DNA from: Berberis thunbergii
Lineage: Eukaryota; Streptophyta; Magnoliopsida; Ranunculales; Berberidaceae
Length of the DNA: 64,000 nt
Assembly (NCBI GenBank): GCA_003290165.1
Contig: QNQO01005785.1
Location: 372,001 to 436,000, forward strand
Reading direction: 5' to 3'
The translations under genes were made by a program, and so were the position numbers. This document shows, in pieces, positions 15,278-60,904 of this stretch; position 1 is the stretch's first letter, and every line of letters starts with the position of its first letter. The notes below the pieces were generated by a model that made no database searches, was not told the DNA's origin, and saw nothing but the letters and a program-made list of their open reading frames with translations.

Positions 15278-15420
15278 GGATCGAGGGGGGCTCCTGCGCG
15301 GGGTGTGCTGGAGCGCGTCCTACGCACCGTTGTGAACCGTTGGATGAAATCCGACGGCTCGTAGCGATGGAATTCAAAACCCTCTATTAATTAAAATGTT
15401 GGCAGATTTTAAATCTATTA

Positions 15421-15447
15421 CAGCCGTCGGATCAGATCCGACGGCTG
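15421..15447. repeat. Subterminal palindrome in the left arm
   Basis: There are 13-nt inverted arms, cagccgtcggatc and gatccgacggctg, separated by one base. The same palindrome is in the right arm at 19448-19474. The half-site atccgacggct also occurs nearer both ends and in the 606-bp relative, so it may be a transposase-binding motif. Confidence 0.8.
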
Positions 15448-15944
15448 AGATTTATGACTTGGAAAATCCATTTGCAAAGAGAGAGAGAGGGTCTGCGTTT
15501 GGAAAAAAAATCCAGTTCTCGATCTAGATCTGAGGGAGAGGGAGAGGAAGAGGAAGAGGAAGAGAAAGGGGATCTGAGGGAGAGGAAGAGAAAGGACATC
15601 TGAGGGTTCGTTCGAGAGGAAGAAGAAGAAGAAGAAAGGGAATCTGAGGGTTCGCTCGAGAGGAAGAAGAAGAAGCAGAGGAGGAGGGGTTCGCTCGAAA
15701 TGGCATCTGTAGAAGAGTTTTCTCCCATTTGGTTCCCAAAAGCTTCAATCTGCAAAAGCTTCAGTCTCAAAACTCTCTGCATTTCGTCTTCGAAAAGCTC
15801 TCTCCCATTTTGATAGTAATTTTGTGAGTTTCAATTGAGATGCTGCTAATGCTAATACTAATGTTCAAACCTCAACTCATGGTACGTACCTTGTTCCAGG
15901 TAATTTATGTTAATAGATTCTCCACATCGTCAAGGAAGCATGCT

Positions 15945-18942
15945 AATTGCTTCATGTCTTCCCAATCTTCTCCATGTTGCTCATCAAGTAGTATGGTCAT
16001 GTTATTTGCTTCATGTCTTCCCAATCTTCATGTTCTTTGCTTCATGTTTTTTTTTCCCCACTTCTTCTCTCCAATTTTCTTCACTTTGTTGTATTATTTG
16101 GTGGTGGTGGTAACGGGATGTGGTGGCCGGTGGGTTGGTTTAGGGGTGGTGGTGGTGGCAAGGTTGATTGGAGTGGTGGTGGTGGTGAGCTCGATTGGGA
16201 TAGCGCTAATTGTTCTTCTCCCCTTCTTTTCCATTGTACAGTAGTATGTTTGAGTATAGCATTTGATTAAATGTAGTTTAAATTTGTAATGTATCCATTG
16301 ACTGAAATGTAGTTTCAATTCTAATGAGCTGGTTTTCAGCTTTGCCTGTATCTGATTTGCAACAACACTTGATTGTTATTCAATTTTGTGGTCTACTCTT
16401 TCATTCCCATACCGAAATTCTCAAGTTCACAGGTTGAAAAACCCTTCTCTTGCAACCATGGGTGTTCAACCTCAAGGTCTGACAAATAAGGCATCCAAAG
16501 ACACACTCATGCAGACTGATGGGATTCCAAGATGCTTTTGTAATGTACTTATAAAGAGATTTTGTAATGAATTTCAGTATGTAATGAACTTCAAGTTATG
16601 AAGTATGAATTTTGTTGTAATTTATTGTGTTTTTGTTCCTACACTGATTCAAATAATGAAGTATGAATTTTGTTGTAATTTATTTTGTTTCTGTTCCTAC
16701 ACTGATTCAAATAGTTCTTTGTTTCCATAGGGGTTTTTGGAGTAATTGGATGTGTAGGTTTTTCGAGTTTGATTTTTGATGTTTGTGTTATATTTTCATT
16801 GTTTCAGAGAAAATTGTTTCAGGTAAGGTGTTCTTGATTTGAAACACAGGTAGCTGAGATTAATTGAACTATATGTTTGTGTTATTTCTCTTTTACTTAT
16901 TTTGATTTAATTTCTGAAGGTGAAGTTGTAAAAAAAGCAGGCAGTGGAGAGAAACCAGAGGGATTAACATTGCATTTCATACCAAAATTAGCATATAAAA
17001 CTGCTGTTACAGCATTTCAATTCATATAAAACTGCTGTATGATTTTGTTCTTGAAATCTGCTGTTATTTTGGAATGAACTTCATATAAAACTGAAGTTTA
17101 ACATTGCATTTCATACCAAAATCAGCATATAAAACTGAATTCATATAGCAACCTGAACAAAATCAGCATTTCACATGGCAACCTGCTGAATTACTGATTC
17201 ACTGAAATCATATAAAACTGATTCACATTTACTGAGTTCATATAAAACTGATTCACAATTACAACATTTCAATTCACTGAACAAAATCAACATTTAACTG
17301 ATTCACTGAACAAAACCAGTTGCATTTCAAACTGATTCATAAGTGAGTCTAAATTCCTGGCAGCAGCAGCAGCAAGTCATGATCAGCAGTTCATTGATCC
17401 TAATCTTCAAATCAACACTGAAATGATCAATTCCTCCAGGTTGTAAAGTCCATTTCATTGCTTGAACTTGGTGGCTGCAAAAATAAATAATAAAGATCAT
17501 AAAATAAATAATAGAGACGCAAACATACAAATTATATACATTTCAGTATAGGCACATTTGATCAATATTTCTACTCCCTTATTTCCATCTAATTAAAGTA
17601 CTCTACTTGACTTCTACCTATTTTGCATTATGATATCAAACCACCTTTAGGGTCTTGGCAAAAATAAAGCACTTGTCAACACAATCCTCTGCGGAGTACG
17701 ATCTCTTGAAGAGCTAAAGAGCTTAAGTTATAAATAGCATTTCCCTTTAGCTTATCATACTAATCATTGCACAATATTTGTTATTGAGCTTAGACATATG
17801 AAAACCACTATCTCAAAGTTGATTGAAAAAAGTGAATGTAACACGACATTAAAAGCTTATAACTGAAGCTAGACATGAAATGCATAGTTGAAAATAATAC
17901 TAGTACTCTTTACAAACTATAAACGACTTTCTTTTGTATACATGAGTCTAACTAATAGGATGTGGAAGATAATGTTCGATTAAGAACTTATAAGAGCTAC
18001 TAATGGCAGTGTTGTTTACAATCAAACAATGAGAGTCAAAATAAAGATGAAAATACCTCATTACACACCTTTTCCTCCAATGCCCCTTTACCAAGAGAGG
18101 TCGGGCTTCCATTTGTAGTGATTGTAGGTGGATCTCTTTCAGCCTGGTAATGAGCTTCACCAAGGGTTTGATCAATGGAATAGTTGGGTTCTTCCTAAGG
18201 ATGTAGAATGGATTTGGGAGAGGCCTATTTTTGTGGTCCTGATATCATGACCCTGGTCGCACCACACATCAATGTTACCCTAACCTCATACAATCATCCA
18301 TGATCCCCAACCTCAATATTCTCATCCTGCAATCCCTTCATTCTGCAGTTAAGTCATAACTGAATTGGAATTCAATCATTAACCATTTAACTACTACCAG
18401 ATGCTCCAAAACAGTCACGCAGAGTATTTCTCAAAGCATTGCAGATGATGGAAGGCAAAAAAAAAAAAAATTGAACTACTCTTAATGCAATCACCGTATA
18501 AGGTGAATATAAAAAAAACTGAAGGAAATGATGTAATGCAACATTTTTAACAATGGAGAAAACATATGGGAAAGGCGGGGAGTCTTGTTTCTCAATATGT
18601 TTGAATTACTGTTTCACATTAAGATGACAAATAGATTGTTTACAATGAAAATGTTTCTCAATGCATTCGTTACGAGTTGAAAGTGCCTTAATATATCAAC
18701 TTTTAATGAGTCTTACAAAGTAAACGTATTTCAGTATGAAATGTATCCATGTAGACCATTAGCTTATGTTCACCTAGCATGCTACGCAAATATTCTTCAA
18801 ATTATAAACTCAGCATATAATATGATTTCATTAGATAAATCAAAACAACAAACCATGAAGTTCAAACTTCAAAGTAACAAAGTAAGACAATGGTTTATTC
18901 AATCAAAACTTAAAACCTTTTTCTTGCCTTTATTTCGCTAAC
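15945..18942. other. Interior of the long-TIR element, no recognised gene
   Basis: It is mostly AT-rich. It includes a short tgg/ggt-rich stretch (16100-16190) and, at about 16980-17340, degenerate repeats built on ttcatataaaactgattcac. A minus-strand reading at 17490-17330 (HQVQAMKWTLQPGGIDHF) looks protein-like, but I do not recognise it; it could be a captured exon. No DDE transposase or zinc finger was visible. Confidence 0.5.
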
Positions 18943-19616
18943 AGCATGCTTCCTTGACGATGTGGAGAATCTATTAACATAAATTACCTGGAACAAGGTA
19001 CGTACCATGAGTTGAGGTTTGAACATTAGTATTAGCATTAGCAGCATCTCAATTGAAACTCACAAAATTACTATCAAATGGGAGAGAGTTTTTCGAAGAC
19101 GAAATGCAGATAGTTTTGAGACTGAAGCTTTTGAAGATTGAAGCAGATTGAAGCTTTTGGGAACCAAATGGGAGAAAACTCTTCTGCAGATGCCATTTCG
19201 AGCGAACCCTCCTCCTCTGCTTCTTCTTCTTCCTCTCGAGCGAACCCTCAGATTCCCTGTCTTCTTCTTCTTCTTCTTCCTCTCGAGCGAACCCTCAGAT
19301 GTCCTTTCCTCTTCCTCTCCCTCAGATCCCCTTTCTCTTCCTCTTCCTCTTCCTCTCCCTCAGATCTAGATCGAGAACTGGATTTTTTTTTCCAAACGCA
19401 GACCCTCTCTCTCTCTTTGCAAATGGATTTTCCAAGTCATAAATCTCAGCCGTCGGATCTGATCCGACGGCTGTAATAGATTTAAAACCTGCCAACATTT
19501 TAATTAATAGAGGGTTTTGAATTCCATTGCTACGAGCCGTCGGATTTCATCCAACGGTTCACAATGGTGCGCAGGACGCGCTCCAGCACACCCCGCGCAG
19601 GAGCCCCCTTCAATCC
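18943..19616. repeat. Right terminal inverted repeat of the long-TIR element
   Basis: This is the reverse complement of 15278-15944. It contains the same CT-rich tract, palindrome (19448-19474) and GC-rich tip ending in cgcgcaggagccccc. Confidence 0.85.
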
Positions 19617-26245: not shown

Positions 26246-26723
26246 TCCCATCCCCTTCAAACACACATTGACCTCAAGGCTGAAAGTCTGGAAATGCTAC
26301 AGAGATGTGAGTCAATCTTCCCACGTAACTTCATCATTGGAAGAGAGAACTTGAGTCACAACTCTATTATGTCGAGGAATAATATGCCTACTCAGAATGG
26401 CCACAAGTTCGACAATAAAGCCCTCAGTGTGATGCAAGAAAAAGTCGAGAATATGAGTGTTGCAAGGGACCCAATTTCTTTTTCAACTATGAAACATGAA
26501 AAACAATATGGATCTATGATCCTTAAGGCAGGTCTAACTTGTAAGCAAGCTATCCAACTTTGTCAATTATGAGGAAGAGACCATAATATTTTGAAGATAA
26601 TTTCAAATTACTGCGAATAGCCACTGAGGTCTACCTATAAAGCTATAATTTGATAAACACCCAATCACCTATGTTGAACTCCCTATTTGTCCTGTTTTTG
26701 TCCACAAAGTTCTTCATTATCGC

Positions 26724-27797
26724 TTATGCTTTGACTAGCAAATCTTTCAAGGAATCAAACACATGTTGACATGTCTCTAAGTATGTATCCATGTCAATAA
26801 TACGGAGTGGGGCAAAAAGCGGCAAAGCAAATAGGAGGGGTGAGTACCCATATAAAGCCATAAAAGGAGTAGTATTCAAAATAGAGTGAAATAAAGTGTT
26901 GAACCAAAACTCTACCAAATACAACCAGTCTGCCCAGTTGTGAGGATAGTGACCAATCGTACACCTATGATAACACTCTAAATAGGCATTGGTGCATTCA
27001 GCTTGACAATGCATTTGTGGGCGTTATGTGGAACTCATAGCCATATTAGGGCTAAATACGACAAATAAGTCTTGCCAGAATGCACCAAGAAAAATTCAGC
27101 CTTGGTCATACACTACAGTTTGAGGCAGCCCATGCAACTTATAAACATTTTCTGAGAAGACATGTGCAACTATAGTAGTTGTGTAAGGATGTGAGGGAGC
27201 CATGAAGTGACTGTATTTGGTGAGCCTATCAACCACCTGGGAAACCCTTTATAAAGTCCATGGATGTGTCTTGCCAAGCTTGGGTGGGAATAGGCAAAGG
27301 TTGTAGTAGGCCAGTAGGCTTAGAATGTTGCCCTTTATTCATTTGAGAAATATCACATTGGATAATGAAGGTGGCAATATCATACTTCATGCCAGGCTTG
27401 TAAATGTAGAGTTGGCCCTTTGATAGGTGAAATTAATACCCAAATGACTACCCAAGTTAGAAAAATGTAGAGCTGAGATGTGTAGTTGCCTTAGAGTACC
27501 ATTGGAGCCAACGTAAAGTTGAGTTTTGAACTCAAGTAAACCACTGTGAAGTGTATAAGGAGAATCCTCAGGAATTGAAATCAAAAGACTAGATATTAAG
27601 GACCGAGCTACAGAGTCATGATCATAATTGTGAAGTACCTCGGTAAGCCAATAAGGAGTAGTAATAAAAACGACATGTAAAGTAGCTTCCATGGAGGATG
27701 ATGACTTCGCTCTTCTTGATAAGGCATCAACTTCAATTTTATCAACACCCTTTTTGTATTTGATTTCATAATCATACCCAAGGAGCTTGGTCATCAA
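26724..27797 (-). pseudogene. Gypsy RNase H end and integrase remnant
   Basis: LTKLLGYDYEIKYKKGVDK then VDALSRR marks the RNase H-integrase connection (27790-27700). YHRCTIGHYPHNWADWLYLV and TTPFMALYGYSPLL mark the integrase core and its C-terminal side (about 26970-26840). Integrase normally joins the cDNA to chromosomal DNA. The frames are broken in between, so no functional enzyme is possible. Confidence 0.85.
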
Positions 27798-27836
27798 TTT
27801 TTGTTGTAAAATAGTTGTAACTTTCTGGTCCGGGAA

Positions 27837-29000
27837 TTATTTAATACTTTGATGGTTAGCTCTAATAATAAAATGAGTAACCAACAAATATGATCTCCAT
27901 TTAGCAACTGCCAACACAATAGCTAAAAGCTCGTTTTCATATGTAGACAAACCTAGAGCTTTAAGACTCAATGCTATAGTAAAGAAAACAATAGAATGAC
28001 CTTCTTGCATCAAAACAACACCCAAACCCAGAGTACTAGCCTCAGTCTCCACTACAAAAGGTAACTGAAAATTGGGCACTGCTAAGACAAGTGTGGAACT
28101 CATGGCTTGTTTAAGTTTATTGAAAGCTGTAGTAGCTTCTGGAGACTAATGGAAGGCACTTTTTTTAGAAAGTTTGTGAGAGGTCTACAAATCACACCAT
28201 AGCCTTAACATGCCAAGCCTATGAAGCCTTTCAATTGCTTCAATCTTGTAGGTAAGGGCCATTCAAACATTGCTTTAATCTTCACTGGGTCAGCAACCAC
28301 ACCTTGAGCATTAATGATGTGTCACATGTATCCAAGGTGAGATTGAGAAAATGAGTACTTTGCAAGTTTTAGAATAGAAAGTATGGGTTCTCAAGGTATT
28401 GAAAGTATGTGTTAGATGTTGAATGTGGGTTTCCAAAGAAGAGCTATAAACTGAAATATCATTAAAAAGGATAAGTTTTCTAAGAAAATGTTTGAAAATT
28501 TAATTTATAAGGGCTTGAAATGTGGCTGGAGTTCATGGATTGGGAGCGTTGGTCTTGACAAGATATTGAGGCCAAATGGAATCACTTTGAATTCAAAGTG
28601 GCAATGATGTGTCCTAAAAGCTCGAGCACCGGGAAGGTGAAATAAGATTTGGCGATACCCACTACTAAGGTCAAGTTTGAAAAAAACATAAGCTCCATGT
28701 AATTCATCTAAAAATCTTCAATGGTAGGAAATAAAAACTTACACTTTATGGTGACGTCATTCAATTTTCTGTAATCCACACAAAATCTCCAAGTGGAGTC
28801 TTTCTTCCTTACAAGTAAAATCGGAGTAGCAAAAGGGGAGTGACTATGAGTGACCAGCCAGCTTGCAACATTCTTCAACAACTTTTTGGATGTATGGTAT
28901 CTTATAGGGTGTTTGGTGAGTAGGGGTGGAATTGCATTTCATTGAATATGGTGGTCTAATGAACGACTAGGTGGGAGCTCATGTGGTTCTTGGATATATC
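27837..29000 (-). pseudogene. Gypsy reverse transcriptase and RNase H remnant
   Basis: STWRFCVDYRKLND-like sequence (about 28800-28750) and LPFVVETEASTLGLGVVLMQ then STYENELLAIVLAVAKW (28050-27900) identify the RT fingers and RNase H. The catalytic YxDD box is degraded to FNDI near 28460. Frameshifts split the RT. Confidence 0.82.
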
Positions 29001-29519
29001 TTGATACTGAGATAACATGTTGGTAAGGATATGGGCATTGGTGGAGAAAAGTGGGAAGTAGTAATGGATAAGAAATGATCAACTAAAGCCTGGGAAGGGT
29101 GTTTGAATAGTTTCTTGAGGGCACTACAGAGAGAAGGAGTAAGGAGCCTTTATTTCATGCTCCCTTTTAAAGTGATCTTCTTTCCATGGAGCTTAAGTGT
29201 TAAGTTGAGCTTTTTGGAAATTTATAATGATGTCTCCAAAGGGTTTCGGTCAATCTATACCAAGGACAATGTCACACCCACCCATTTACAAAACTATGAG
29301 ATCACCATGGAAGTGATGCCCTTGCATGTCCCATTGCATTTTTGGGCGTATAGCATTACTGACAATCTTAGATCCATTGGCAACTGTGCATATTTGGAGT
29401 CAAAACAGTTGGACAATTCAATACTACAACAAATGTCCTCTTTTATAGCATTTCATAATAGCATTTTTCACACATTTGCTATAAAAACCAATTTTTGTTC
29501 CTACTGAAATTAGAAAACA

Positions 29520-32500
29520 CTATTAAAATTGGGTGGGATTTAAAAACACTGAAGGCACTCGCCTAAATATTGACATCGCGCTATTCTCCTTTCCCTCCAA
29601 CCTACAAACCTAAAAACTTATCATGTCTCTCTCTCCTGCAATTCTCCTCCTCCATGTCTCCCTCTCATGTTGACATCCTTCTCATGTTTACCTCTCTTGC
29701 AATTCCCGTGTTGCTCTGGAGAGTAGGAAACAAAGCAAGGACGACAACAACTGTCTCTCTGGTTCTCTCTGTTGCAGATCTGGTTTGTTTTGAGTGTTTG
29801 AAGTAAATGTACCTCTCTCTCTACTCCTTTCATCATCTTATTCTTCTTGTTCATTTCGATCACTTTTTTTCTAAAACCCAAGCTCCAAAAACGTGCCCAG
29901 ACAGATTTTTACTTAGGGTATCTATTGATTGTAGAAGATTCGGGTTTCTATTAATCTTGTTACTGGAATTGCAAGTAAGCACGGGCAATCAGAATGGATG
30001 TTTCAAGTTCTTAGAAACAGCTAAGGACTTACCCACCATCAGTAAGAATCAAGTTAGATGTATTTCAAGTTATACGCTATTGCTCTAATATACTATGACA
30101 CAAAATTCATCAATGTCAACGAGTGTGTAACACAAAAATAAGAGGATTTCCTTTTGTAATGATATTTCAATCAACATCTACTGCCAAAGTAACTCATATG
30201 AAAAATTTGTGTGGAATAGTGACTTCAAACATTCAGTGTCTGAGCACCATGATGAAATGCATTGCAGTGAGTTTTCTGATGTATCCTCTTATTTTACCCT
30301 AATATATTAATTTATAAAATAGCATTTTTTGAATCAATTCTGAAAATGCGTTATTCTTTTAGCCTGGTGAAGCTGAGTTCCTTCCAAAACCATTATCTGA
30401 AGACAAACTCAGAAATATATGGCAACATGCCGTTCATAAGGCCAGTCTCAACTATAGTTCTTTCCAATATGTTGCATTGAATGGCAACACCTCGTTCATA
30501 AGATAAAGAAGATCTAAGCAATTTTTCCTGAACAATCTTTTAATGGTAGGGAAGTGCCGTCCCAAAATCATTGAGGCCAATAAAAGAGACCGTAGATTCA
30601 ATGCTTCAGCTCCAACAAGACAACAATGAAGCTGATAATAAAAACTTGCTAGAAATTAATGATTCCTGGCAAGCCCATGAATGAAGGCTTTACTCATTTT
30701 CTGTGCTCTAGTTACCCGACACAGGAAGCATTCCGATAAGTAATTAGTGTATATATGCTTTTACAACTTTATTAAAATTGAGCCCTTTGTTGCTTTTGAG
30801 CATGCAACCTCACCTGCTGTGTTATTATACTTTTAGGTTGATGCCAAATATCATAAACTGTGCATCTAAAATAGTCAAGCAAAACATCAATATCAGTGTA
30901 AGATAATCAAATTTATTTAGTGGTTAAAAACAAGCAATAATTATTTTGCATTATCCATTCTTGTATTAGTAAGAATTTTGGTTCATATTTTATGCTTGCA
31001 TTCTAAGTATGCATATGCTGTTCATGTGTCCAACTGGAAATGAAATTGGTTCTAGAACATTGCTTGGCTTACAACCTGTTTGTTTAACTACTTTGTTCTA
31101 TCACTGTGTTTTCTTCCAGTCACGTTCTGAAGCATTTCATATGTCTTACAGAAGCTCGATTTTTTGCCAGAGTGAATTGTTTCATTAGGTTTTGATGTTA
31201 TTTCACGTGTCTTGGAAACAAGCCCCAGTAAGATCTTTACTGTTTTGTTTTTGTTCAAGGCAAATCTCGTGTATGTTCAGTTGTGTTTAATTATGCCATT
31301 TGTTACTTTCCTCACTTTTGGCATATCATCTGATGTAAGGTTGGAGACTAGTTTCACCACATTTTTCAACATTGTTAGAATCTGCAATAGTTCCAGCATT
31401 AGTAATGAATGAAAAAGTGAGATATCTTGTATCTTTTTTGTGTCCTTTCCCAGTTATGGTTGTCATCTTTTCAACATTTTTCAACAAGCCAAAAATTTAT
31501 GGCTTCCCTTCCTTGTTGGTGCTTCCTTTTCTATCGAAGTTCCCTATTCCTGCTTCTGCTACTGCAAGCGATACTATGATTTCAAATAAGCGAGTTTAAA
31601 AGAAATTCCTTCACAAAATATGTATGTATATTTTATTATGTATTAATGAAGGGGGAAAAAAACTAATGTCTTCACTATATTTGCTTAGAAAAGACGATGG
31701 ATAAGAAAGTTATGTTATGTTAAATTTTTTATTAATTTGCGATTTTACACCCTAATGCTCAATAGGATTTGAGTTCTTTGATCCATACACGAACTGACAA
31801 AATCTTTGATGGGTTTCTTGTTGGGTTACAGTAGTATTAAATTGAAATCCTTGTTTGACCCAAGGTTTTGTTTCATAGGCCGATATCTTAATCAGTTTTG
31901 CCATTCTAGGTGCAACCACTGGCTGGATGTTGTAGAAAATGGACTTTATTGAGAATCTTTACTTTACATAATGTTATCAGAGAGCTAATACCATTGGAAG
32001 GTTATTATGTGCAAAACTAGTTTCATCATGAATTTCTTGTTTTAATTTAGCTTGAAAGCTTCTAGGAATTCAATACAGAGATGTTAAAGATGTGTGAATA
32101 AATGACACGACTGAAAGTTATTTTATGGAAGATCAATCTATTAAGTTATTCTTTGGTCCCGTGTACAATAGTTATTTGTGATATGTTTCTGAGAAGTGGA
32201 TAGTATTTTGGGCGTTAAGATCCTAAGATGTAATTGGTGTATATATATATAAATATGACTCCTAAGCTTCTCTTTCTCGTGGCCATTTGTGGATCAGTTG
32301 GTTGGAGATCACAATTTCAATCATCAATTTCCAATTTTCATTCGATTTCGATATTTTCATGCTTTAGAGTGGTCATTTTGTACCTTTGGTGCTTTCCATT
32401 AGCATCGTGCGTATGCCTATCTCTTTTTTAGGCCACTTCTTTTGTTTGCTTCTTCGTTGTATCCTTTTTATACTAATAAATTCTACTCCTAAAATAGAAT

Positions 32501-32870
32501 AAAAGGAAAGTTGATGAAAAGTTCTTGAATTCTTTGTGATAATTGATGCTTTTCTGATTTCACAATCATTAATCAAATATCTCTTACGACAATCATGAAT
32601 GCAACACTTGAAATCTATTATTATTTGTCTTATAAATTATAATAGATAATGGGCATAAGGTTGTCACCCATTTTATTTTAGCTAAGATTATGAGTTGTAT
32701 CACTTAACTATTTCGTTTCTTATCATCATATATACATGGGATTTTGAAAATTGTGTGCCTCCCTTGAGCGTACGACATACATTAGCTACCGTGCTTTCAT
32801 TTATTAGTCAGAAATGAACCATTTACGCCAAGTTTTGATGTCTTATTTTTACATTTATGTTCATTACGGC
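29520..32870. other. CACTA interior, left half, no recognised gene
   Basis: AT-rich with short ORFs. A plus-strand reading near 30366-30450 ([20 protein letters not shown]) followed by a GT donor-like site looks like an exon of a further captured gene, which I cannot identify. No transposase domain was seen. Confidence 0.45.
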
Positions 32871-32874
32871 AGTT

Positions 32875-34414
32875 ACTACGGTGTTTTGATGGCATATGGT
32901 GGCCTCCAAGATGTAAGGTGGTCTTGTCATTTCAATTAGTGGCTTTAGACTATCTGACCTGTAATCTCATAAATCAATGCTTTTTTATACAGTTCTTAAG
33001 TGAGCGCAATCCTGGATATACATCAACTCTAGTTCGAACTCGAGTGATACCATTGTATTCATTGTCTGCACATATACCCTTCTTAACTTGCAACTGCAAA
33101 CTGGGTACTAGGAGAACTCGCTTCTTGTCTTCCTGAAGTGAGAAATCTTATCCACCATTTTTTAGCTCTCTCCTCGTTCCTCTCTTTTTAACTTTGACTT
33201 TTTTTGTTCAGGATATCACTGCAGATATATTCTTCATTGCTAAAATCTTTGGTTACACCTGATTTGAGGGATATATCTTGTTATCTCGGTCCGGGCTTCT
33301 GCTGCTGGGGCAGTTGCTGAGCTTCTTGAGGTGAGGGACCCAATTATAATGGTAAATTCTATCAATCGTAGCATTTTCATAGCTGCCTTATATTTTGTAA
33401 CCTTAATTGTCTGCAGAATGAGTACTATCCACCGGATTGGTTGCCACTTTTGCAAGTTATTGTTATAGAATGGACAATGAAGACGACAATGAATCCTCTG
33501 TTTTACTTCAGCTTTTGAGTACCATAGTTGAAGCTGGAAACAAATATGTGATTGCGCACATTCCCTATGTCATGTCTGCTTTGGTTGGGACTATATCAAA
33601 GCACATACCTCCTATTCATGAACCATGGCCTCAGGTACTCAAAGGATGTCATAGATTCTTTGACATGATTGTGAGTTGCGCAGTTTTACTTGGATAAATC
33701 GACACTTATAGTCATCAATATTAGGTGGTTTCTTTTGGAGATTTCACATATCTCAACCTGATTGAGCTTTGTAAGTTCTACATTAGAGAACTTGGTTTAA
33801 CTCCTCACAGTCAAATGCATCACTCAGGAGTGTGAGCTTTGTTGATGACCTATATCTCTATGTTGAATTTGTTGCATAGCGGTTTAGGGTCACTTTGGTG
33901 GTAGCCTGGTGGGTGGTTGGAGATGATTTTTCTACCACATAGATATCCACTTATATCATTTTAGGTTCTGGCAATTACATGTTGGGAATTTCATCATATG
34001 CTTGATTGTCATCAGTGAGACTATCTATGTTTATTAAAGAGGGTTCTAGTTAATGCAGTAGTGCTAGTTAATGTCAATATTTATATTAATATATCAGCAA
34101 TATTTGCATGTTACCTTTTGTTTTTAAGTCCATATTCCATATATTATGAACTTGTGGCAAACAGTTCTGTGGCCTTAAATAGAAACATAACTAATCAATT
34201 TGTTATTTATAAATGCTAACTGATGACACCTTTTTAGGCGGTTGAAAGGGGATTTTTGGCGTTAGCAGTTATGGCTAAAACTTGGAAGGATCACATGCCA
34301 AAAGAAAATGAGCCAAATGAATCAAGTGAAAGTTGAGATCTAGTTGGGCTACTATTGCTAGAGCATTTTTCAGTTCTCTTGGAACAAGCTTTGCTTACAC
34401 CCATGAAACTAGAG
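32875..34414 (+). pseudogene. Captured importin-beta-like gene fragment (several exons with introns)
   Basis: The exons resemble part of a HEAT-repeat importin-beta-family nuclear transport receptor. They are about 32875-32912 (GVLMAYGGLQD), 32993-33135 (ERNPGYTSTLVRTRVIPLYS), 33212-33330 (ASAAGAVAELLE in one frame), 33417-33634 (NEYYPPDWLPLLQVIV, then IAHIPYVMSALVGTISKHI) and 34238-34414 (VERGFLALAVMAKTWKDHM). Introns keep GT-AG borders, so genomic DNA was captured, not mRNA. Single-base indels break at least three exons. The exact family member is uncertain. Confidence 0.75.
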
Positions 34415-35099
34415 GTGCATTTCTCTTCTTGGAGTTGTCAATTGTATTTGATCTTATAAGGGTCCTATCATTTATTTGATATGCAATGGTAACGTGAAGA
34501 CAATAAATTTATTTATTTTGATGAAGTACGTAGATTTATTTTTTATCTGCAGAAATTGGAAAGCTTTTCCTACAATGTAGAATGCATGGATGCCGTTTCG
34601 ACCCTCACTAACTTATTGATATATGAAATGGAAATAGGTATGTTATGCACATATGGGTCAAACAACTATGTGGGTAAATCTATTCTGTGCATGTATTAAC
34701 AGCTGATCCTAGTACAATATCATAAAATCAATGTCTCTGGCTCTTTGCTGTTTAGTGGCATGATCTTGCCAAGGTTTTTGAATATTATAATGGTTTATCG
34801 GTTCTTTTAATTTCTCAAGGAGCTCTCCTGGAATTTAATGATAGGGTACAAAAGAAACTTGTCAAGATTTTATAACCTTACCTTGTTGAAGTATATAGAA
34901 TTCTTTATATCTGCAGAAACACGACTTCTGTAGATGACGGGAATCTTGAAGTGGATGCCTCCGTTTGCATTTCAAAGTCAGATGAACACGTTTTTTTTTT
35001 TTTTTGCAGCAAGAAAGAAAACTTGCACTGATGATGTCTTATCTCAACATATCATCTTTCCCTTTATTCTCTAACATAGTGACGTCCTTATTAATGTAG

Positions 35100-35715
35100 G
35101 GAGTCATGATAACTCAAGGGAACATTGTAGCGACTGCAACAATTATGATAGTCATTCCTGGAGTAGGGAGTAGTGATACTTACTTAGCTTATTTGCCACT
35201 AGCTCATGTTTTTGAACTAGCAGCTAAGGTAATTGACTACAACTCTTTAGGTATACATGTAATACAAACAATACCTTATTTGTTTATCGCATACTCCTTT
35301 CTTTTGTTTCTGGTAGCCAGGTTGTGATGATTTATGCTGGTGCTTCCATTGGTTATGGTTCAGCTTTGACTTTGACTGATAGTTCAAATAAGATTAAGAA
35401 AGGAACCCTTGGAGATGCATCCATGTTAAAGCCCACCATTATGACTGCAGCTCTTTCCATTTTAGATCATGTCCGAGAGGGTGTGCTGAAAAAAGGTTTG
35501 AAAATTGGCAATGTTTAACAGAAATTATGCCCTATTGTATGCATGGTTTGGGATTTTCAAATTTGCCTATTCTTCACCTTCTTTGTTCTGTAGGTTGATG
35601 AGACGGGTGGACTAGCTAAGAAACTATTCAACATTGGATTCAAACAAAATTGGTAGCTATGGAAGGGAGTTGGTTTGGGGCCTGGGGACTTGAAAAAGTT
35701 TTGTGGATGCAATAG
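35100..35715 (+). pseudogene. Captured long-chain acyl-CoA synthetase (LACS) fragment
   Basis: Three exons with GT-AG introns are present: 35100-35228 (GVMITQGNIVATATIMIVIP, then LAYLPLAHVFELAAK), 35321-35495 ([20 protein letters not shown], then REGVLKK) and from 35594 (VDETGGLAKKLFNIGFK, then GSWFGAWGLEKVLW in another frame). These match the central AMP-binding region of plant LACS8/9-type enzymes, which activate fatty acids with CoA. The third exon has frameshifts, including one just after the GLEKVLW motif. The amino- and carboxy-terminal parts of the enzyme are absent. Confidence 0.85.
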
Positions 35716-36007
35716 TTTTCAAAAAACTATTCACACTGATAAAACAAGGAGTACAATGGGGATGAGGCAGACTATGAGACAATCAATGAGGCAATCATCA
35801 ACTACTCCATTCACACTTATGCATGAAATCCGTAAACTTGAGCACCTCCAGGAGCAGCTTGGAGAAGAAGCAAATTGGGCTCTGAAGGTACTACAGAAAA
35901 AGGTTGCTTGTCATAGACTAGGTAATCAAGATGCAGTTGAGACTATTGCCAAGTTGCAAGCAGAAATACGGGAGATGCGTACTGCAAGGGAGTTAAGAAA
36001 TGTTTAA
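35675..36007 (+). pseudogene. Chimeric ORF ending in a captured NACK/HINKEL-type kinesin segment
   Basis: This 110-codon ORF starts in out-of-frame LACS sequence, then from about 35760 reads RQSMRQSSTTPFTLMHEIRK, LEHLQEQLGEEANWALKVLQ and HRLGNQDAVETIAKLQAEIR. These match the region after the motor domain of NACK1/HINKEL cytokinesis kinesins, in good frame. The fragment lacks the motor domain entirely. It ends at a stop after ELRNV. Whether the chimera is transcribed is unknown. Confidence 0.82.
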
Positions 36008-36264
36008 GTGTAATACATTATCTTATTAATTACATTATTTTTATTATTTGATAGATTTTGTGACTTGATGTAATACATTATCATATTAATTACATTACTT
36101 TGCCTCCATTCATGGAAATGTTTAAGTGTTTGACACATTTAGATTTTTATTTTCTAGAAATAAAATTTATAAGATGTTATAAAAAGTCATTTGATAGCAC
36201 TTGATGAGTGCTATAGAAAAAAGGGCATTGAGAAACGCTATAGAAACTAATACAATAGCATTTG

Positions 36265-36900
36265 TTAAATGCTACGTGAGAGAAGACAATAGCGTGTCTG
36301 AAACGCTAGAAATGGTCTACTTACAATTAATGAACAATTTTCTTGTAGCAACTCCTTTACCACATGACGGTCAATAAATGAATGTGTGCTTCCCATATCA
36401 GTAAGTATAAAAACCACTTTTTTTAAGACGACATGTGATGAGGATGGTATTTGGAGAATTTGTGCCAATGAGAGCATGTAAACAGACCTCCGTCTATGTG
36501 TGAATTTCTTGCATAAGATCCTCTCGATCAATCTCAAGTGAAGATTCCCTAGGGACTTCCTCTAAATCAGCCATAACCATGTATAATTGTTGTTACTTGT
36601 ATTTCTCATCGCAATTATAGCATAAACCTTGTTTTCCTCTGGATCTCGTTTGAGCTTGGTAACGTTGCCTTCTAATGGGGGGGGGGGGGGGGGGGGGGGG
36701 AATAGAGTAGCATATTTGGTGTTGGAAGGCAATGATTTAGGGTTGACAACAACTTTGGTGTAGTGGGTGTAGCAAAAAAAGTGAAGTATGAGTAGTGCTA
36801 GAAGAGGGAAATGTTTTACTCCAAGGGGCACTATAAGCCTGATATTAAAGTGAAGTGGAAAAATGTTTGGAGTTGGGTTTTGAAGTTTTGGATTGAGCAA
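36265..36900 (-). pseudogene. Gypsy gag-protease linker and protease start
   Basis: FILTDMGSTHSFIDRHVVKE near 36430-36350 is the retropepsin-like active-site region, with the usual DSG changed to DMG. A proline-rich linker is encoded by the 24-base G run at 36677-36700. The segment breaks at the CACTA insertion (36348) and resumes at 29421 with NCPTVLTPN. Confidence 0.75.
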
Positions 36901-37080: not shown

Positions 37081-37633
37081 TGACGATACATCAAAATAGA
37101 CCGACAACCACGACCATACATGTGGCATAAAAACACATCATGAGGACACAACAAACAACCTACTGGGCCAGCTCATGAAATCCGATAGAAATAAAGTTAA
37201 TTCCATAAGCCCAGACAAAGCCCACCTTTAAGGAGGCATACGCAGGATCTGAATCAAAGCCCAAATCCAAGCCCGTTACACGTTATCTCATAAAGAAGAA
37301 TAACGTTGCGCCGATAAAGAGCTGTGGAAGAACCTATGCCTCCCTGAACGCATCTCCATTAAGGAGGAGATTGTTACAAAGACATCTCATTCCGTTACGC
37401 CTCACATGCTTAAGTCACGCAGAGAGTTAACTACGACCATTATAAAAGGTAAAGGGAACATTCGACAAAGGTATGCAACTTTAACTAAGTTTTGTCCAGA
37501 TTTACTTCCTTCTTCTAACAGAGTTACTGACTTTAGCATCGGAGTGCCTTCGGCCACCAAAAAGGTGGTTCTTGGCAGTCTAACAATGGTTTTGTAGGTC
37601 AAACTCATAGGATGACAATTTTTGGACTCATCA
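37081..37633 (+). repeat. 5' LTR of the 6.0-kb element
   Basis: It matches 42502-43064 along its length with scattered substitutions. A ccacc/ggtgg hairpin lies at 37554-37568. Confidence 0.88.
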
Positions 37634-37656
37634 GTTTAGCACCGTTCATGGGGAAC
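37634..37656 (+). promoter_or_regulatory. Putative primer-binding site
   Basis: tttagcaccgttcatgggga directly follows the LTR and resembles the ttggcgccgttgccgggg-type sites used by several plant gypsy lineages, with several changes. The equivalent in the 10.1-kb element (60928-60905, minus strand) is tttggcgctatccatgggaa. Confidence 0.5.
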
Positions 37657-42501: not shown

Positions 42502-43064
42502 TGATACATCAAAATAGACCGACTACCACGACCGTACACATGGCATAAAAACCCATCATGAGGACACATCAAACGACCTACTGGGCCAGCTCATGAAGCT
42601 CGATAGAAATAAAGCTAATTCCACAAGTCCAAACAAGGCCCACCTCTAAGGAGGCGTAAGCAGGATCCGAATCCAGGCCCAGACGAATCAAAGCCCAAAT
42701 CCAAGCCCGTGACACGTTATCTCATAAAGAAAAAAAACGTTGTGCCAAGAAAGACCGTATAGGGATCTACGCCTCCAAGAACGCCTTTCCATTAAGGAGG
42801 AAACTGTTACAAAGACATCTCCTTTCGTTGCGCCTCACATGCTTATGTCATGCAGAGAGTTAACTACGACCATTATAAAAGGTAAAGGGAACGTTCCACA
42901 AAATTTTGCAACTTTAACTTAGTTTTGTCCAAATTTACTTCCTTTTCCCAACAAAATTACTGAATAAGCATCAGAGTGCCTTCGGCCACCAAAAGGTGGT
43001 CCTTGGTAGTCTAACAATGGTTTTGCAAATCAAACTCACATGAGAATGATTTTTGGATGCATCA
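42502..43064 (+). repeat. 3' LTR of the 6.0-kb element
   Basis: It pairs with 37081-37633. The hairpin ccacc-aaaa-ggtgg is at 42986-42999. Confidence 0.88.
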
Positions 43065-43440
43065 CTTATAATAATATTGTACTAAAGTCTCTTGGATCAA
43101 TTTATTAAATATTAAACAAAATTTTCTTGGGCATCGTTTTCAAACCTATCCATACATCCTTAACAAACACCTCCCAATTAACTATTCCCTCACCTTCTTA
43201 GTAATCCATGAACCAATGCTTAGCTATGCCTTCTAGATGAATCAAGCCATGTGCACTTTGTTGTCATCTTTCACATGGTGTAATTGGAAATAGTGATCAC
43301 ACTTACGAGCCCAATATCGAGGGTTAACTCAATCAAAATCGGGAAAATAAGCTTGGGACAACAAAGAAAATTACCATCTCTCCAATGATTGTCGAAGAGC
43401 AGATGTATATGTGAGTGGAATCGCGTCCCTCTGTTGAACT
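43065..43440 (-). pseudogene. Gypsy gag remnant, upstream segment
   Basis: NPRYWARKCDHYFQLHHVKD, then DDNKVHMA, is typical gypsy capsid sequence, with in-frame stops. It continues as ETLVQYYYK and, after removing the 6.0-kb insertion, FKELKTQMVAHD at 37080. Confidence 0.8.
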
Positions 43441-48103: not shown

Positions 48104-48760
48104 CTAGGCTATATTAGTCAACATAGAATGCATAAATTGACAAAAAAATTGTCTTATTAGGCTCAATTGAGAAAGCCAATCTATCAATATGTGAGTATTG
48201 TCTGGCTGGAAAAATGGCACGTAAACCATTTGGCAAAGGAACAAGAACTGAGATTGCAGATAATCCATTTGAATATTTGTGGTCCGATGAATTTTAGGGC
48301 CAGAGATGGGTATGTATATTTTATCACAGTTATAGATGATCACACTCGATCTTGTCACGTCTATTTGACATCTCATAAGTCAGAATCTTTAGATTGCTTC
48401 AGATGCTATGTTAAACTGGTAGAAAATCAATTAGACATGAAAATAAAAATATTGAGAAATGATCGAGGACGTGAATATCTATCTGATGAATTCAAAATTC
48501 TATGTGGTGAAAAAGGAATAGACAGACAACAAAATTTTAACTATTTCGAGGACTCCGCAACAAAATGGTGTTGCGGAAAGGAGAAACATAACCCTTCTTG
48601 AAATGGTTAGGTCAATGATGGTACAAACAAATTTACCTATTACCTTTTTGGGTGATGCTTTGCTAACTGTTGTCCACATACTTAACCTAGTGTCCTCCAA
48701 ATCAATTACGATGACTCCTTATGAACTATGGACTGGTTGCAAACCCAATTTTTTAATTTA
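48104..48760 (+). pseudogene. Copia integrase remnant
   Basis: CEYCLAGKMARKPFGKGTRT-like zinc-binding sequence with changes is followed by ICGPMNFRARDGYVYFITVI and ILRNDRGREYLSDEFKILCG, the integrase core with its catalytic Asp region. A frameshift near 48550 is followed by TPYELWTGCKPNF in another frame. Confidence 0.82.
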
Positions 48761-49215
48761 AGATCTTAGGTTGTGCTGCTTATGTTTACAATATTTCCCA
48801 TAAATTTGGAAAATTGGGTCCTAGAGGTAAAAAAGAATATATTTATAAGATACTCTGAACACTCTAAAGGATATGTATTTATGGGGAACAGGCAAGTGGT
48901 AGTGTAACTGAATTTGAATCATGAGATGTCGTGTTTCTTGAAACAGGATTTTCAAGCAGGGGTGAGTTAAACCATGATTTAACTCTCTTTGAAATGGCGG
49001 ATTCAGATGAATTGCTTACGCAAAACTAGTTGGTGAGTTCACTAGATATTTCAACCAAATCATCTGATCTGAGTGGGATCCAAGCAAATAATCTTGAAAT
49101 CGTTTCACAAGAAAATCAATTATGATGTAGTAGTCGTGGAAATATTCCCCGTCGTTATTTTGAAATTGAGGGTGAGGCTTTTATTATAGCCCCACAAGAG
49201 GACGATGATCCGAAA

Positions 49216-49950
49216 ATGGTTAGGGAGGCTCTCACATGCCCTGCAAAAGAACAATGGATAAATGTAATGAAAGAAGAAATGGAGTCAATGAGATCAAACC
49301 AAGTTTGGGAATTGGTTGATCTTCCAGAAGGATGGAAAACAATTGGGAACAAATGGGTTCTCAAGATTATGTGTAAAGCTAATGGAACAGTTGAAAGATA
49401 TAAGGCTTGATTTGTAGCCTAGGGGTATACTCAAAATGAGGAAATTGATTACTAAGAAACATTCTCTCCAGTTGTGAGATTTACCTATATTTGCTTTATT
49501 CAATCTATAGTGGCAAGTATGGATATTGAATTACATCAAATTGATGTAAAGACTGTTTTTCTCAATGTAGAATTGCAAGAGGAAATCTATATGGAACAAT
49601 CTATAGGTTTCATAAAGGAAGGTGAAAAACAGAAAGTGTACAGGCTCTTAAAATCAATTTATGGTATAAAACAGTCTACCAGACAGTGGCATATACGTTT
49701 TCATCAATTCTTAATGTCTTTTGATTTTAACCTGATTGATGAGGACTACTATGTATATGTTAAAAGATGCAATGACATGTTTGTGGCCTTGTCATTATAT
49801 GTAGATGACATACTGTTAGCCGAAAATGATAAGGAGTTTGTGATAGCCATTAAGAGTTTGTTATCATCAACATTTGAATTGAAGGATATGGGTGAAGCTG
49901 TATATATACTTGGTATACAATCGAGCGAGATCGTTCAAAGAGATTGTTAA
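49216..49950 (+). pseudogene. Copia reverse transcriptase remnant
   Basis: REALTCPAKEQWINVMKEEM, then WELVDLPEGWKTIGNKWVLK, is the RT start. IDVKTVFLNVELQEEIYMEQ and the catalytic LYVDDILLAE (about 49795) are retained. In-frame stops at 49408, 49420 and 49453 stand for Arg, Gln and Gln. Confidence 0.88.
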
Positions 49951-55869: not shown

Positions 55870-57115
55870 TCGCGAGTCCTCCGCGTCGAGCTTCCAAAGC
55901 TCTGACCAAACTTTCGACTCGGTTTTACCTGATATTGGTGGAATAGGCTTAGTTAGACCAGAATTTTTTATTGCCAGTTATAATTGATTAAACCAGGGTT
56001 GCGGTTTTGCGACCATTGTTTGTGATAAAACAGTTTTCCCTGGCGAACTATTTTGATTAGGCGTCGAGGGCACTGACTAGACTCCCACTTTCCAACCCAT
56101 CATCGTCTGTTATTTGCATACTAGATGTTAGAGTGATAAGGTTTGGTTATCATTGTCTGCGGAAGGACAATGATCTTTGGCAAGCAGTCTTCACCAGGCT
56201 ACGTGAGCACTGACTAAGCTCCCACTTTCTAATCCATCATCATTTGTTATTTGCAGACAATGTGTTAAAGTTATAAGGTTTGGTGATTATTGTCTGTAGA
56301 AGAACAATGATCCCTAGCAAGCCGTCTTCACAGGCTACATAACATTGATTAAGCTCCCATTTTCTAACCCATCATCATCTACTATTTGCAGACTAGGTGT
56401 TAGAGTGATAAGGTTCGACGATCATTGTCTATAGTTGGACAATGATCCCTAGCAAGCCGTCTTCACCAGGCTACCAAAGCACTGATTAAACTCCCATTAT
56501 CACCCGTTCTATTTGGACTAGGCTTTGAGTGGACTAGAAGCTATCATTGTTAGTGGCCGTTGACTAAGCTTTGGTCGGGTTAGGAGATCGTTTTCCATGC
56601 AAGGATCCCTGGCAAACCATCGACACCAGGCTTGAAAGCACTGACAAGACTCCAACTTTCTAAGCCGTCGAAATTCGTAATTCGAGGACTAGGCTTCGAG
56701 CGGACCAAAAGCTATCATCATCGGTCATCACTGACTAAGCTTTGGTCGGGTTTGATCACTATTGACCATGTTTGGACAATGATCCTTGGCAAGCTGTCTC
56801 AATCAAGCATCAAAACGCTGACTAAGGTGCCACTCTCTAAACCGTTGGCACCCGTTTGACGGACTGGGTGTTAGAGTGGACTAGAAGCTATAGTCATATA
56901 TCGAAACCGACTAAGTTTTACTTAAGTTCGGTGACCATTGTCTACACATGGACAATGGTCCCTGACAAGCCATCGTGGTAAGGTATTAAGAACGCTGAGA
57001 AAGCTCCCACCTTCTAACCCATTGTCGTCCACTTTTGGCCGGCTAGGCGGTAGAGCGGACCAAAACCTATTGTAATCAATCGGGTCAGACTAAGTTTTTC
57101 TTAGAATAAGATTTT
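55870..57115. repeat. Tandem repeat block, about 7 units of 135-180 bp
   Basis: Units carry gactaagctcccactttcta and gacaatgatccctagcaagc. The first motif recurs near 56062, 56209, 56343, 56480, 56638, 56816 and 56992. Later units gain an extra segment with ggactagaagctat. The spacing is irregular and the units are diverged, so the array is old. It lies between the aORF and the gag side of the element. Confidence 0.85.
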
Positions 57116-60500: not shown

Positions 60501-60904
60501 GGTCCCCTCAGTTGCTCCTCCACCTTTGGTCCACAGGGAAGCTGCAGGGGCAGTACAACTCGCTTGAACTTGTTTTATGGAACCTTCTGGGGACTTGGCT
60601 CTTCGTTGCTTACGGTCTTCTCCTACGGGTGGATGATTCTGCTGATTGAGTATCTCCACTGCTCGTGCGATTTGTTGCATTTAGGTTGAAAGTAGATATA
60701 CCCTTGGGTCCACCACGGCTGCCACTGACGCAAGGGTCTGAGAAGGTTCCTTCTGCGTTGGTGGTGGCACCGGAGCTAGCGACGCTCTGCTAGCACCGAG
60801 CGTTATAGAGTCCAACAGTGTCTCCATTATTGCGAAACCTTTTTGTTACCATTTTTATGGCTCTATGGGAAAGGTGGCACTACTGTTTCTTTTGAGGAAC
60901 TCTG

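Follow-up and report, generated by a model that had tools for sequence, protein, structure and literature searches.

We found that a 64,000-nucleotide (nt) stretch of Berberis thunbergii DNA (contig QNQO01005785.1, positions 372,001 to 436,000; here called the window) contains a CACTA-like element that carries slices of four or more plant genes, all on the + strand. In order, these are slices of a gene for an APRR2-type protein resembling two-component response regulators, an importin-beta-family gene, a gene for an AMP-binding enzyme, and a NACK1/KIN-7A kinesin gene. The element sits within a Ty3 retrotransposon that is read from the minus strand. An earlier note, made from the sequence alone, had described an element with pieces of three host genes: an importin-beta-like gene, an acyl-CoA synthetase and a NACK-type kinesin. 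Those three pieces are real, the synthetase as an AMP-binding enzyme. The count was too low, as the APRR2 slice had been missed.

Slices of four plant genes

The APRR2, importin and kinesin identities were obtained by comparing read-through frames of the window with a plant-protein database; whole relatives were then mapped back onto the window by tblastn. Among the relatives listed, all 120 APRR2 proteins, all 120 kinesins and all 4 importins matched at E<1e-4 on the + strand only, an agreement that confirms place and strand and not identity, as these relatives had been found using this element. A single orientation for all four pieces has a 1-in-8 chance and requires no explanation. The coordinates of all features are collected in Table 1.

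The APRR2 slice matched 176 proteins at E<=0.01 (best E 1.5e-9; the best 120 of the 176 were used). Its introns were placed at 30042-30219 and 30267-30362, and there is a 22-nt duplication inside the slice. Two APRR2 matches (E<1e-3) reach further left, to 29909 and 29921, and the stretch from 29572 to 29971 is possibly more APRR2 or a further capture. The join to the importin slice is tight: the commonest end of APRR2 matches is 30681, and matches to importin start at 30684.

The importin slice was matched by 4 proteins among the 7,993 scored, the best (E 1.3e-22) being a Coptis protein with an importin N-terminal domain. Its exons are in the parental order. Residues 359-438 of protein P0241 are absent; that is, ~80 codons are gone within 93 bp (31417-31509), indicating a deletion in the importin sequence before or after capture. 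Because of this deletion, one further importin junction, at 31417-31509, could not be placed. Stops interrupt the exons, for example in the exon at 31152-31227 and at 34334. The right edge of the slice was set by eye, with matches ending at 34402-34423, and the junction with the next slice falls within 34416-35099.

The third slice was identified as AMP-binding by Pfam over its first two exons (E 4.1e-11). It was located from this translation and by eye, not by mapped relatives. It is probably of the LACS8/9 type; a further exon would then start at 35594, and the right edge would be that of Table 1. NCBIfam models for bacterial long-chain acyl-CoA ligases matched weakly (2.3e-5), far below cut-off, and searches of the PDB with the importin and LACS pieces found no relative. 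The join to the kinesin exon, near 35717, is tight by eye. That exon gave a best E of 8.8e-32, to an unnamed protein, and 6.6e-31 to a protein named NACK1, with 393 proteins at E<=0.001 (the best 120 of the 393 were used).

We placed twelve introns of 74-1,279 bp in the element, two in APRR2, eight in importin and two in LACS. All twelve run from GT to AG, an agreement that is partly by construction, the ends having been chosen by eye with GT-AG in mind. It is a stronger point that exons matching the parent genes are kept apart by non-coding stretches. For the first LACS intron, an acceptor four bases on (35320) preserves the frame better; the spliced test translations used rough coordinates and were not continuous for APRR2 and importin. 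The retention of introns between parent-matching exons supports the conclusion that the pieces were captured from genomic DNA, as the earlier note had proposed.

It is scarcely credible that the element just happens to span retrocopies or what is left of real genes next to one another. Their common strand is the one feature in favour. In contrast, the retained introns speak against retrocopies, and each slice is internal to its gene. This internal position of every piece also makes contiguous parent genes an unlikely source. The numbers of the parent genes are also widely apart in Reevesia (APRR2, Repub07fG0230400; NACK1, Repub07fG0103800) and in Coptis (importin, IFM89_012676; NACK1, IFM89_024461). 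In each species, however, the contigs given for the two genes are equally long, so that the pair is perhaps on one chromosome, and the two are far apart only if the numbering follows gene order there.

Read as a whole, the mosaic has no continuous open frame. Stop-free stretches in the element reach 116 codons at most, and the mosaic most likely makes no protein. If transcribed, the exons would serve as cassette exons, as in soybean wp.

Table 1. Positions of the element, its cargo and the surrounding retrotransposon in the window
Feature	Position	Strand	Details
Host Ty3, remaining protease and downstream domains	26478-29421	-	RVP_2 columns 71-112, E 0.0029; RT_RNaseH_2, 5.7e-22; SH3_Tf2-1, 3e-16
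Target-site duplication CAA, left copy	29419-29421	.	
Whole CACTA-like element	29422-36348	cargo on +	6,927 bp
5' terminus	29422-29571	+	tip TACTACAACAAATG; subterminal TAGCATTT (29446, 29459), TGCTA (29477); right edge is the analyst's choice
Stretch left of APRR2	29572-29971	+	best match ending left of 29970: E 0.067 among 244 proteins
APRR2-type response-regulator-like slice	29972-30681	+	four coding pieces; mapped relatives
Importin-beta-family slice	30684-34415	+	P0241 aa 269-691 in order; eight introns placed; stops and frameshifts
Stretch between the importin and LACS-like slices	34416-35099	+	exon-like part at 34552-34637; best E over the whole stretch 0.30 among 244 proteins
AMP-binding, LACS-like slice	35100-35718	+	two Pfam-tested exons; two introns placed
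NACK1/KIN-7A kinesin exon slice	35717-35995	+	aa 417-500 of P0126; open frame
3' terminus	35996-36348	+	TAGCA/TGCTA/TAGCG/CGCTA cluster (36195-36304); tip ...TTTTCTTGTAG
Target-site duplication CAA, right copy	36349-36351	.	
Host Ty3, first part of protease	36352-36531	-	RVP_2 columns 13-52, E 0.016

Termini and the insertion site

CACTA-like tips are present where the earlier note had reported CACTA-type ones, though they are imperfect. The 5' tip agrees with CACTACAASAAA at all but one base and is one base off CACTA; as a terminal inverted repeat (TACTACAAC) it is a near-match and not an exact one. The inverted 3' tip reads CTACAAGAAAATTG. With CTACAAG and no outer CA, it is again a near-match to CACTA and not exact; the 3' tip is without the outermost two bases expected of ...TAGTG. 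A strict tip pattern occurred once in the window, at 29422. A loose search was within chance: it gave 22 matches in the window, a number reached in 9 of 100 shuffles. One pattern for the 5' end was absent from collections of viral and prokaryote sequences, which is unsurprising for a plant element.

The flanking CAA repeat described in the same note is also there, on both sides. Equal 3-bp flanks at this spacing are found at 1.9% of places in the window, and the chance of such a match is 9% if the 3' edge is chosen among five positions. Alone, the flank match is modest evidence for a CACTA insertion. With the loose tip search within chance and the flank match modest, the case rests on the coincidence of several features and on the host site.

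The subterminal repeats stood up better at the 3' end than at the 5' end. We scanned the whole stretch for TAGCR/YGCTA in 180-bp windows with a step of 20 bp. There were 7 copies in the last 180 bp of the element, compared with a window average of 0.25 per 100 bp, and this count was reached only there. The 5' end has a smaller cluster, 3 copies in the first 100 bp, that is not unique in the window, as 3 are also found near 16160-16200, 36700 and 60700-60760. As in CACTA elements generally, short repeats (TAGCA, TAGCG and their complements) lie at both ends in direct and inverted orientation. Within the element, clusters of at least 3 per 100 bp were found only at the ends, and there were no tip or subterminal relics between the gene pieces. 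A TAGCATTT-like repeat inside an APRR2 intron (30303-30334) may be due to chance.

We considered a Helitron, a Pack-MULE or another gene-capturing element that looks like a CACTA element by chance. The imperfect tips, the outcome of the loose tip search and the few other places in the window with three repeats per 100 bp are consistent with this. It is nevertheless extremely improbable: the CACTA-like tip, the inverted 3' tip, the 3-bp flank and the subterminal repeats all fall together at one pair of points. Mutator elements have a 9-bp duplication and long repeats, and Helitrons have TC...CTRR ends. The ends found here are unlike either.

The host site is informative. The protease profile RVP_2 is matched on both sides of the element, columns 13-52 reaching its right edge and columns 71-112 restarting 15 residues past its left edge (the latter frame was searched with X in place of stops). 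Both matches are weak and below the curated cut-off. RNase H and integrase-type SH3 domains follow downstream in the same frame as columns 71-112. Because the domain is broken at one edge of the element and resumed past the other, a single insertion of ~6.9 kb most likely split one Ty3 protease domain. Just right of the insertion, positions 36677-36700 are 24 consecutive G, which may stem from the assembly or from replication slippage.

Several other repeats and retroelement remains lie elsewhere in the window. A long inverted pair (15278-15944 and 18943-19616, with blocks 89-100% complementary and ~3 kb between) has no matching outer flank duplication by eye. Direct repeats at 37085-37636 and 42503-43067, with blocks 82-91% alike and 5.4 kb apart, may be long terminal repeats that belong to a further retroelement. 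Remains of a Copia-type retroelement are found on the + strand at 48161-49950 (integrase core, 7.5e-12; RVT_2, 1.9e-38). Degenerate tandem-like repeats, with a spacing of ~135-137 bp in the first part, occupy 56071-56991.

Classification and assembly of the mosaic

Based on the tips, the repeats, the split Ty3 protease and the four same-strand slices, the locus is very probably a non-autonomous multi-gene Pack-CACTA, with four internal genomic slices, that inserted as one unit into the Ty3 protease. This agrees with the class assigned in the earlier note. Host coding DNA lies inside the element, as in Pack-TYPE elements. Pfam searches of six frames read through stops (E<=0.1) found no transposase domain, with AMP-binding the only match, and an element without a transposase of its own is likewise of the Pack-TYPE kind, within the limited sensitivity to decayed pieces of a scan that also missed the kinesin, importin and APRR2 slices.

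That limited sensitivity weighs against this classification, as do several other points. Only 1 of the 5 peptides tested reached the Pfam cut-off in the AMP-binding search, and the GT-AG agreement is in part circular, as described above. The tips are imperfect at both ends. The empty site is equivocal. With one CAA in the join, the upstream frame of the rebuilt host protein remains open over 17 residues, for a score of 16.9 bits; a join without the CAA duplication is better, with 18.1 bits and 42 open residues. Neither join leads the upstream frame directly into the frame with columns 71-112. As neither is decisive, the exact 3' edge is not fixed by the host protein frame, and the CAA/CAA duplication has the 3-bp length of a CACTA target site with no confirmation from that frame. 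Finally, there are no visible internal tip relics of the kind that would mark the stepwise capture considered below.

It is also possible that the mosaic came first, as a chimeric pseudogene formed for example by double-strand-break repair with filler DNA, and that CACTA ends came to flank it later. The tight APRR2/importin join with no tip relic between pieces would fit such an origin, as would the small duplication within APRR2. We consider it quite unlikely. All of the pieces lie between matching termini in one insertion that splits the Ty3 protease domain, so the whole unit moved together, whichever came first.

For the Pack-CACTA that we favor, the following course of events seems plausible. 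The element, being non-autonomous, would have been mobilised by the transposase of another CACTA element. Internal slices of at least four genes would have accumulated step by step. One route is that of the published Pack-CACTA model, in which insertions lying close together fuse and are mobilised again; the other is gap repair gone wrong. As a single unit, the mosaic would then have inserted into the protease gene of the resident Ty3 retrotransposon. In the passages on that model in the two papers cited, neighbouring insertions fuse, move jointly and trap the intervening DNA (PMC8903248; PMC13317346). The missing internal tip relics neither favor nor exclude fusion.

The fusion model predicts that inner pieces are younger. 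We compared drift at the protein level as ortholog-ortholog identity minus element-ortholog identity for the NACK1, APRR2 and importin pieces; for LACS there were no relatives. An ungapped match of at least 55% was required, which excluded 13 of 120 relatives for NACK1, 13 of 120 for one APRR2 piece and 1 of 4 for one of the importin pieces. The values were 0.03 for NACK1; -0.01, -0.03 and 0.08 for three APRR2 pieces; and -0.04, 0.07, 0.10 and 0.13 for four importin pieces, the importin relatives being four proteins from two genera. There was no clear age gradient among the NACK1, APRR2 and importin pieces.

We think it very unlikely that the mosaic is still mobile and transcribed, with its same-strand exons spliced or serving as a source of small RNA and acting in trans on the four genes. 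If this were true, a cytokinesis kinesin, an importin, an acyl-CoA synthetase and a response regulator would be affected together. The mechanism by which transposons collect several gene pieces is still disputed. Studied within its host genome, this element, with four slices including a 3.7 kb piece in which eight introns were placed, would be a good substrate for the question of capture. It is also a warning to annotators, as a transposon can carry stretches that look like exons and have good splice sites.

Comparison with known gene-capturing elements

The element is a clear, large case of the gene shuffling already described in soybean, maize and Arabidopsis. Among open-licence papers we found no description of this APRR2/importin/LACS/kinesin mosaic. 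Its standout feature is the importin slice, ~3.7 kb with eight introns placed.

The direct precedent is Tgm-Express1 of soybean, a 5.7 kb CACTA element with both exon and intron sequence from five host genes unrelated to one another (PMC1947982). Both are CACTA elements of similar size with a multi-gene cargo that includes introns. The captured genes differ, and Tgm-Express1 lies within an F3H intron and yields chimeric transcripts, whereas the element described here sits in a Ty3 retrotransposon (PMC1947982).

The Pack-CACTAs of Arabidopsis and maize, like this element, are described as having CACTACAA-type ends and carrying host coding DNA, with no hit to a transposase, and those of maize contain coding DNA from the most distinct loci among the Pack-TYPE elements studied there (PMC8903248). 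In contrast, captures reported in that account for the PIF and Mariner families are 58 to 280 bp, and one slice here is kilobases long (PMC8903248). The Chenopodium CACTA elements are similar in having CACTA ends, subterminal units (10-20 bp in that case) and fragments of host genes; they differ in that, in the examples given, the fragments adjoin a transposase-associated domain, and one capture (AP2) is 80 bp (PMC8978399).

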